Notes under the pieces: generated by a model | Told to the model about the DNA's origin: nothing | What the model saw: only the letters and a program-made list of their open reading frames with translations | Database searches by the model: none | Made by a program: the position numbers and the translations under genes | Part shown: piece by piece, positions 46,695 to 63,458 of the stretch | How positions within the stretch are numbered: the stretch's first letter is position 1 | Layout: each line of letters opens with the position of its first letter | DNA from: Tubulanus polymorphus | Lineage: Eukaryota > Nemertea > Palaeonemertea > Tubulaniformes > Tubulanidae | DNA: 64,000 nucleotides | Assembly (NCBI RefSeq): GCF_964204645.1 | Contig: NC_134031.1 | Coordinates: 5,749,001 to 5,813,000, forward strand | Direction of reading: 5' to 3'

Positions 46695-49600
46695 ATGGCG
46701 GGAGAGCGAGGTCGGGCCCCTAAGGCTACTTTGCCCTACTTGGGTGAGTGCGATATTTTGAAATAATAGAATATTTCAAGACATCTATCTGTCGATATCT
46801 ATAAATCATATATTTTTCATTTTTTTCAATCATTTTCAAAAGATAGATGCATTAGATTTCCAAAAATAATCATTTTCCAAAGTTGACATGAATTTATGCT
46901 TTTTCGCGTTTAGCCATCATAAACTAAGATGCAATCGATATTAACAAAATGCGAATGAAGCTGACATCTTAAGTTGATTTGTTTTGGCCGTTGCAATTTT
47001 ATAATAAGACGGCGAAAATATGCAAAACCAGATCGAAATTTTTGGTTAGCGTTTTAACCGCAAACACCAAATGGCGCGGTTCGAATCAAGAACATATGAT
47101 CTCACTTGTGTACAGAGGATATATACAATTTACAGATGGGAGTGATAAAACAGAACCAAAAAAAAACAACCTTATGAAATAAAAATTAGACGTATATATT
47201 TCACGCCGCAGTAGCAGACCACGCGGACGAGGATGATAATTTGATGGAAGCAGATGATCAAAATGTAGCCATCATACCTGAAAATAACAACAGCTTAGAG
47301 GTAAGAGCTTTGCAATCGTTAGTACGAGTAGATATACTTACCGGTGGCCTCTTGGTTTATTTCTAGTAGAGCTCTTCTTAAGCATAACGGCAATATTGTT
47401 CTTTGCGGACGTTGACTTATGTGTGGCAGATTCCTGAAGATTTCTCTCGTGTTGAAATCAATATCGTATTAATTTTCCTCCCTCCCATTTCACCGGTTCA
47501 AGTAGGAAGCGAATGGGTTAGTTTAGAATTTTAGGGATGGTATTCATGTAGGGTTGGGCAGTATTGGATGTGCTAATTCTAAGCCACGGCCCTGTAATGT
47601 TCTCCCAGAATTTACCGACAATGGCGGCCGGGTATTTGGGTAATTCGGTAAAAATTCGGGGTCACCTCGAAAAACTTCAAACGATAGCCTTTAGTGAAAG
47701 CGTAATTGTTGAATCATTGTACAGACTAATGTAACATTAACAAGAATATGTCAACTTTCATAAATCATGCAGCGCTGATTGAGTAAGAGTTCTAGACGTT
47801 TGTGGTTATTCTTATCGTTTTGACTCCAGTCCTGTCTGATGCCGCTATCAAAATACAGAAAAAAAGCTTAAATACCGTGTATAAATAGCAACAAATAAAT
47901 TTGACGCGTCCACCAATTTTGGCCATTGAATGAAAAGGTTTCAAGCAATAAACAATCGCTTGAGTGGAGGATCTATTTTTCACTTCGCATATATATATAT
48001 ATATCTTCAAAGTTGGACTAGTGACTAAAAATTGTATAGTGGATCTTGCAAATAGGTGAATTTGGCTCGGCGAAATCGTTTCGTGGATAGTATTTCCCAA
48101 AATCTAAGAGGTATGTATGTTCCAGCATAGGCAAGTAACTTCCAAAAACTGTTTCGCGATTTCGTATGAATTCAAGCTGGTAGTGCAGTAAAACATTAAA
48201 CACTCAGCGTGCAGTCGTTCAGTTGCGTAATTCTAAACATGCGTTTGTCAGTCAGTTCAGACTAAACAACTGACTTTGATTGATACCCGTGGAGCATTGA
48301 GAAAGTTGCTCCGGGTCGATTTTTTCTCGGATTCGCAGCCTTTTCAGGAATAATTTAATGCCTTATTCGATTCCAGATCGTTCACTGCCGATCGTTAGAG
48401 ATATTGCGCAGCCTCAACCCACTCTTATTTCAGAAAACAAACTTGTCTTTTCTCATGCGAGTAGTTTTTATCTGCAGTATAGTTTGTGACGCCTGCGTAT
48501 TTTGTGTTTATGTAAGACCCTCTTTCTCTAAATAGTCGTAAGGACGTTTGATGTCGCCTGTGATAAGCGCAAACCCTTAGCGGAGTCCTTATCCTACCGA
48601 GGTATTTGACGTGGCTGGCAAGCATGTTTGAAATCATTTTTTACCTCTATAGAAAATACCTAAGTCATCAAATGATTACTCCAAGTTCACAGATTAATAT
48701 AAGGGGTTATAGGCAGCAGTGTGTGCAGGCCAGTAGGTCGGCGATATAAGCCGCGTTCACACGACAACTAGTTAGACCGGTCTAAATGGGTCCGTACCTG
48801 GTCCGGTCCAAATTTAGACCGGACCAAATTTTGGTGAGCGTTCACACGGCGTTTTGACACGCGGTGAAAAAATAGCTTGTCACCGAGCCCACAAGATGTC
48901 GCCATCTGCTAAATAATTAATTGCGCCTGGATGAAGTTTTGCTTTCAGATTCCAAGTAGAGCAAGGCATTCTTCATATCCTCTGTCAGGTTTATACATTT
49001 TTGCGATTCGATTTTATTCTATCATGCTGAAAGCACGGCAGTAAAACGGATGATGATCGCGATATACGAATACGAATTACGCTCCAAAAATTTCCATTGA
49101 ATAGGGAGGAAAAACAGTACTTAAAAATGATTACATAAACGGTAAAACTTAATAAACTGGACTCACACTCTACCGCAGAGGTTGTGACATCTACCGCACA
49201 GATTCAGAATTACGATTTAGACCGGACCTGGTACCAGTTTCTGTCCACACACGCATATTTAGACCGGTCCAAAATTTTGTCCGGACCTGGTTCGCTCTTT
49301 TAGACCGTGACAAATTAGACCGGTCTAAACTAGACCGGTCTAATTTGGAAGGGTATTTTTGCCCGTGTGAACGCTTGGTCCGGTCTAAATTGGACCGGAC
49401 CAAATTTAGACCGGTCTATATTTCGTCGTGTGAACGCGCCTAGTTCAGGTGGAACATGGGCGTATAATCTATAGTCTACACGTCCATGGAAGGACCCTTG
49501 GAGTAATCAGCGATAACTTGGAGGTGTTAAGCGATATGTGGGGATCGGTTGTCCTCCCTGGGTGAAAATATTCAGAATTTCAGCGGATTAGATGAATTTC

Positions 49601-63458: not shown

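Follow-up and report, generated by a model that had tools for sequence, protein, structure and literature searches.

The nemertean Tubulanus polymorphus carries a gene whose predicted product joins, in this order, a cytosolic tail with the motif FDNPIY, a single membrane span, a SEA domain, a Thr-rich linker, a Frizzled (Fz) domain and 40 LDL receptor class A (LDLa) modules, after which the reading frame stops. With a probability of about 55%, we read the product as a giant type II surface and endocytic receptor derived from a corin/SPH198-type scaffold, in which the LDLa modules would capture ligands, FDNPIY would direct their uptake and cleavage within SEA would make the ectodomain sheddable. 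The gene starts in a window of 64 kb (the whole stretch of DNA that was analysed, C7:5749001-5813000) and was compared with the 267.8 Mb of its own genome, in 77 contigs. Its main ectodomain, the 40-module LDLa array, lies outside the window and thus outside the sequence covered by the initial annotation.

Ten in-phase exons had been proposed for the part of the gene inside the window (46695-63458, + strand), and all ten were recovered in a splice and translation check, in which every reading phase fitted, no stop was found, and GT donors were present on exons 1-10 and AG acceptors on exons 2-10 (Table 1). The exon joins are predicted from the genomic sequence, and the model is least secure at exons 1 and 2, which are both short; the frame stays open 5' of the ATG selected, and translation could begin at another Met. 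Although the start exon is uncertain, FDNPIY and the membrane span are encoded by one and the same exon (exon 3), which has no Met ahead of FDNPIY. A tRNA-Met gene (CAT) occupies 46081-46154 on the opposite strand, at a distance of about 0.5 kb on the 5' side of provisional exon 1, and intron 3 contains an (AT)131 dinucleotide array (58586-58848).

As the initial annotation had anticipated, the gene runs past the window edge. Joining 98 kb of new downstream sequence to the window gave 162 kb in total, without any N, and revealed an eleventh exon of 5,513 bp (C7:5813117-5818629; L002:317-5829) that ends in TAA one residue past the last cysteine. Its AG acceptor is in phase 1 and matches the phase-1 donor of exon 10, which would make intron 10 658 bp long. 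The complete gene thus comprises 11 exons; its coding sequence, stop codon included, is 6,807 bp long and specifies 2,268 amino acids without an internal stop. An ORF on the opposite strand 3' of the gene (L002:8648-9142) matches DUF4808 with 39.3 bits.

Table 1. Exons and features of the gene in window coordinates; positions beyond 64,000 are extrapolated.
Feature	Position	Strand	Content and remarks
Exon 1	46695..46743	+	Cytosolic tail; provisional ATG; GT donor; phase 1 out; least secure of the exons
Exon 2	47212..47300	+	Cytosolic tail, acidic; phase 1 in, 0 out; holds alternative Met start
Exon 3	57904..58171	+	FDNPIY, remaining cytosolic tail, membrane span; phase 0 in, 1 out; aligns with YDNPAY-TM exon of the C4 gene
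FDNPIY, residues 50-55	57913..57930	+	Motif scan; FxNPxY motif, LDL-receptor type
Transmembrane segment, residues 111-135	58096..58170	+	Hydropathy; single
Exon 4	59908..59964	+	Stalk linker; phase 1 in, 1 out; no equivalent seen in the C4 gene
Exon 5	60098..60219	+	SEA part a; Pfam SEA
Exon 6	60352..60419	+	SEA part b; Pfam SEA; both intron positions common to the C4 gene
Exon 7	60983..61152	+	SEA part c; GSV autocleavage-type site (between G and S) at 60987-60995; phase-2 intron before GSV also in the C4 gene
Exon 8	61816..62009	+	Thr-rich linker, then Fz start; Pfam Fz
Exon 9	62601..62754	+	Fz middle; Pfam Fz
Exon 10	63336..63458	+	Fz end; Pfam Fz; phase-1 intron after CRxxC also in the C4 gene
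Exon 11	64117..69629	+	40 LDLa modules; TAA
AATAAA	70235		606 bp past the end of exon 11

Elsewhere in the window, an ORF at 30235-30645 (+) matches sodium:solute symporters above the cut-off (SSF, 42.9 bits) and another at 27444-27860 (+) does so below it (SSF, 17.5 bits), while a single ORF of 339 amino acids at 37973-38989 (+) matches 7TM_GPCR_Srw with 38.1 bits. Positions 32720-33236 hold a perfect (100%) tandem duplication of 258 bp that looks coding and is either a recent exon duplication or an assembly artefact.

The domains expected from the window were borne out by profile searches. Both SEA (40.2 bits against a cut-off of 26.4, E 4.1e-10) and Fz (56.4 bits against 32.1, E 5.2e-15) exceed the curated Pfam cut-offs, ten cysteines were counted by eye in the translated Fz part, and there is a single clear hydrophobic segment, which scores 3.16 over its best 19 residues compared with 1.63 for the best segment elsewhere. 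Extending the gene brought in 40 stretches of Ldl_recept_a (902.1 bits in all, cut-off 24.1); the only further Pfam family listed was the LDLa-like LDLRAD1_C, and no trypsin, SRCR, EGF or YWTD family was listed for the whole protein at an E limit of 10, a setting at which the HMMER filters discard most matches above about 0.1. The order of the domains points to a type II orientation, with an N-terminal cytosolic tail, a signal-anchor span and a modular extracellular stem. Of 36 N-glycosylation sequons in the protein 34 lie beyond the span, and the long array is acidic, with 362 D+E against 183 K+R. When the SEA domain was compared with PDB by sequence, the single match (1ivz, E=0.71) was not significant, and its assignment therefore draws on the Pfam profile and on the alignment with a relative on contig C4 described below. 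Searching with SEA exon 7 returned the window itself as sole match and did not recover even the C4 gene, so that distant relatives could be missed by it. Exon 9 on its own gave a partial Fz match of 29.7 bits, below the cut-off, in an Fz profile search of the genome.

Exon 11 encodes exactly 40 LDLa modules with 240 cysteines. The six cysteines of the module and the core of the calcium site are kept in all 40, the latter in its strict form in 33. If stops were as frequent as in introns 2 and 3, the probability of 1,838 consecutive open codons would be ~10^-46; as six cysteines are in addition kept in every module, a chance origin of the open exon is excluded. The modules are of two alternating types, A (n=25) and B (n=15, with at least 13 residues between the second and third cysteines), and the array would have expanded largely as alternating A-B pairs within this one exon: identity at even lags exceeds that at odd lags by 0.046, a value matched by none of 2000 shuffles of module order (the module-pair alignment holds 12 of 15 adjacent A-B pairs, picked by hand). 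DNA identity between any two modules reaches 69% at most, and we conclude that the array is old and has stayed open. The best PDB match of the array is LRP2.

Six modules (9, 11, 13, 17, 27 and 31), all of type A, carry the signature [WFY]xCDxDxDC, which we take to be the ligand-lysine pocket pattern of the LDLR-RAP structure. The ligand-lysine position is occupied by W, Y or F in 10 of the 40 modules, and by W in one. Among the 15 B modules, 14 are without an aromatic residue at this position, and 13-14 is the only adjacent pair in which both modules have one. LDLa modules are described as holding a ligand lysine with acidic residues and one aromatic residue, and among RAP-binding doublets the strong ones have Trp in both modules and the weaker ones Phe, with no RAP binding described for doublets that lack an aromatic residue in one module (PMC8239462, excerpts). 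The scarcity of aromatic residues, and of pairs in which both modules have one, therefore argues against classical RAP-type binding by the array. Module 35 contains DSSDE, described as an apical sorting signal in LDLR8 of corin (PMC9138375); as this is a single instance in 40 modules, it may have arisen by chance.

A relative of the gene was located by eye on contig C4, by comparing 17 Fz matches with the trypsin matches in the genome (at least 149, from a profile search at E 0.001 in which 150 of 158 candidates were scored). Among the matches listed, the neighbourhood of 26.566 Mb on C4 was the one site at which Fz and trypsin lie on the same strand a few kb apart; an Fz match at C11:1323355 (+) was set aside, the trypsin matches near it being on the opposite strand. 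The C4 gene (26570525-26562482, - strand, L029/L030) has fifteen exons encoding 804 amino acids, its start exon not having been found, and its layout is a tail with YDNPAY, a span, SEA (50.6 bits), Fz (68.4 bits), two LDLa stretches, SRCR (SRCR_2, 42.4 bits) and trypsin (186.6 bits). The sole Met of the exon encoding YDNPAY and the span lies, by eye, at the hydrophobic stretch, and YDNPAY must therefore be translated from an upstream start. NGSVKV is present in its SEA domain. The protease domain, for which enteropeptidase is the best PDB match among the best 60 of 437, contains RIVGG, TASHC, NDISL and DSCQGDSG, presumably the catalytic motifs of a trypsin-like enzyme, and its sequence is consistent with an active one.

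A collinear BLASTP alignment of the two genes starts at the span, takes in SEA and the linker and runs to the end of Fz, with 89 identities in 330 positions (E=2e-27); taken separately, SEA gives 1e-10, Fz 2e-17 and the tail with the span 2.6e-4. Three introns occupy the same alignment columns in the same phases, namely in the middle of SEA (phase 0), immediately ahead of GSV (phase 2) and after CRxxC in Fz (phase 1). In addition, the exon encoding [FY]DNPxY and the span starts in phase 0 and ends in phase 1 in both genes, with the motif near its start, and the junction between Fz and LDLa is in phase 1 in both. They differ in exon 4, an additional linker exon of the window gene, in an additional Fz intron of that gene (between exons 8 and 9), and in a separate exon for the linker in the C4 gene. 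A tree built from 14 Fz rows of this genome groups the two Fz domains with each other and not with the receptor Frizzleds, with support of 87/53 and a long-branch warning. This tree left out L023 (a fragment of the C4 Fz, for which the spliced domain was used), L024 and L025 (in-frame stops), L027 (the partial exon of the window itself) and L028 (a fragment). By percent identity the closest relative of the window Fz is not that of C4 but L016, from the same genome, at 29%. Since the tree is weak and L016 is closest, we base homology on the collinear alignment and the common introns and not on the tree. Judged by these, the window gene shares ancestry with a transmembrane serine protease scaffold of the corin/SPH198 type, and is best described as a protease-less, LDLa-expanded relative of the corin-type C4 gene. 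We infer loss of SRCR and protease and expansion of LDLa as the direction of change. A small family of short genes with similar Fz domains (L017, L019, L022 and L024) is found on C2 at 20.29, 30.98 and 31.03 Mb, one copy having stops in the Fz frame.

The initial annotation contrasted human corin, with Fz but no SEA, with matriptase, enteropeptidase and HAT-type proteases, with SEA but no Fz; the premise that the two domains do not occur together is wrong for insects, and its suggestion that the combination is lineage-specific fails because it is already in print for Drosophila SPH198 and honey bee SPH56 (PMC10036332, PMC1761132). SPH56, which is matched to Drosophila CG1632, is given as LC-TM-SEA-LC-FRI-2LDLA-SPH and the corin-like SP30 as Fz, LDLA, SR and SP (PMC1761132), and SPH198 is given as TM-SEA-Fz-2LDLA-PLD, moth OfuSPH21 as TM-Fz-2LDLA-PLD and Drosophila corin as TM-Fz-2LDLA-SR-PD (PMC10036332). 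From its architecture SPH198 is probably CG1632, for which a tagged line is reported (PMC4379497). Compared by the architectures printed in excerpts of these papers and not by sequence, SPH198 and SPH56 share with the window protein a type II span, SEA, Fz and LDLa in the same order and the lack of an active protease, but they have a protease-like domain and two LDLa modules where the window protein has 40 and no protease domain was found (PMC10036332, PMC1761132). The C4 protein differs in its SEA domain from insect corins, which are printed without SEA in the same excerpts. Human corin is described as a protease with a span, two Fz domains, LDLR1-8, SR and the protease domain, and in the part of the paper available it has no SEA (PMC9138375); the word SEA is likewise absent from the available part of PMC4676143. 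The window protein resembles corin in being type II with Fz and LDLa and in its homology to the corin-type C4 gene, and differs from it in having SEA, which is absent from corin as printed, and neither SRCR nor an active protease, both of which corin has. Matriptase also has a span followed by SEA with a cleavage site between G and S, but it continues with CUB and protease domains and not with Fz and 40 LDLa modules (PMC5567652). In a limited search of the open-licence PMC literature we found no protease-less form and no long LDLa array on a TM-SEA-Fz scaffold. What is new here is that this scaffold lacks a protease domain and has an LDLa array of 40 modules in a single exon.

Against the features of type II transmembrane serine proteases (TTSPs), the tail, span and stem are present in the window protein and a C-terminal trypsin-like domain was not found; SRCR before the protease, a feature of corin, is present in the C4 protein and was not found here. 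The LDL receptor family is defined by EGF-like modules, a YWTD beta-propeller and a type I orientation with a signal peptide. With this family the window protein has in common a long run of LDLa modules that carry calcium sites, the lysine pocket in some of these modules and, from its sequence, an FxNPxY-type motif in the tail; it differs in its opposite membrane orientation, with the LDLa modules C-terminal to the only span, in having SEA and Fz, in the lack of any listed EGF or YWTD family and in the confinement of the array to one exon. Enteropeptidase is a SEA-bearing transmembrane protease with MAM and protease domains. Perlecan, which is secreted and has SEA plus LDLa, was set aside in view of the membrane span, the Fz domain and the homology to C4.

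In the receptor reading, the calcium-bound LDLa array would capture basic ligands and FDNPIY would recruit PTB/clathrin adaptors for uptake; SEA would cut itself between G and S, leaving the halves joined non-covalently, and the Fz-LDLa part would then be pulled off or shed. The related motif FDNPVY reportedly remains functional after transfer to the transferrin receptor, a type II protein. FxNPxY is described as an endocytosis signal (PMC4584282) and capture of ligand lysines is described for LDLa modules (PMC8239462), and it speaks for a receptor that [FY]DNPxY is found in the tails of both the window and the C4 proteins. Self-cleavage is suggested by the SEA domain of matriptase, which is cleaved between G and S and held together non-covalently (PMC5567652), and by the GSVVV and GSIVA motifs at the cleavage site of other SEA domains (PMC6954182); GSVIV in exon 7 fits this pattern, in which G and S are followed by hydrophobic residues in the loop between strands 2 and 3. 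Against the receptor reading stand the aromatic residues, which occupy the ligand-lysine position in only a quarter of the modules (W in one of 40), and the Pfam search, which listed neither EGF nor beta-propeller modules, through which pH would drive ligand release. FDNPIY could also act in signalling or sorting instead of endocytosis. More tentatively, we suggest that a corin/SPH198-type protease was turned into an inverted LDL receptor of giant size. A long LRP-like LDLa array and an FxNPxY motif would have come together on a type II scaffold separately from the LDL receptor family, and SEA would form a self-cleaving joint able to release a ligand trap of Fz and 40 LDLa modules.

The same features could belong to a shed or anchored decoy or matrix protein, whose SEA-released Fz-LDLa part would bind Wnts, other growth factors or lipoproteins outside the cell, with endocytosis a minor activity. 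The GSV site in a class of domain known to cleave (PMC6954182, PMC5567652), the conservation of SEA and of the phase-2 intron before GSV in both genes, the many sequons beyond the span and the long acidic array are all compatible with this. We nevertheless think it rather unlikely, as the NPxY-type motif in the tail of each relative speaks for a function in the cytosol, and as cleaved SEA domains are described as holding until pulled and matriptase shedding as needing a further cut (PMC6954182, PMC5567652). A Wnt receptor or co-receptor acting through Fz is improbable. The domain is real, its best PDB matches being the cysteine-rich domains (CRDs) of Frizzled-3 and Frizzled-10 (~4e-9), but in the tree above it sides with the protease relative, albeit with weak support and long branches, and corin is described as a protease that has two Fz domains (PMC9138375). 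Of the lineage-specific Wnt/shedding receptor that had been put forward as one possibility, a receptor is likely to stand and the GSV site in SEA fits shedding, while nothing but the presence of Fz points to Wnt.

The other possibility put forward initially was an ancestral transmembrane protease, and the gene could still encode an active or recently dead enzyme if protease exons had been missed downstream, in an alternative splice form or in an assembly gap. The C4 relative does have SRCR and trypsin after LDLa, and SPH198 and SPH56 retain a protease-like domain. However, exon 11 stops at TAA with AATAAA beyond it, GDSG[GA]P is absent from both strands of the 162 kb, 98 kb of which lie downstream and which contain no N, and among the trypsin matches listed the nearest on C7 is at 6,524,580, on the other strand and about 706 kb past the gene end. 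We therefore rejected a protease hidden downstream, and consider a missed protease in general very improbable, with the caveat that a strongly diverged dead domain could escape these searches. As the C4 relative combines the same tail-TM-SEA-Fz layout and shared introns with LDLa, SRCR and trypsin domains, and as the searches of the window gene turned up no protease, it is the scaffold of a transmembrane protease that survives of the initial proposal: the gene appears to come from such a scaffold without itself being a protease. That there are two genes, one for TM-SEA-Fz and one for LDLa beginning at exon 11, is the least probable reading: the exon 10-11 join is itself predicted, but its phase-1 donor and acceptor agree, the first Met of exon 11 falls within module 1, after the first Cys of the module, with no signal peptide seen by eye, and the C4 gene shows the same phase-1 junction between Fz and LDLa.

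The receptor reading, taken with the C4 relative, outlines a plausible path from membrane protease to receptor. In the insect proteins in print an inactive protease-like domain is kept; here none is left, and the LDLa modules number 40 compared with two in the relatives seen. That the worm's own genome encodes a SEA-bearing corin-type protease with catalytic motifs suggests that an older stem of the corin type may already have included SEA, which human corin simply lacks. If the uptake role is true, evolution would have arrived at an LRP-like function twice, here with the orientation in the membrane reversed.
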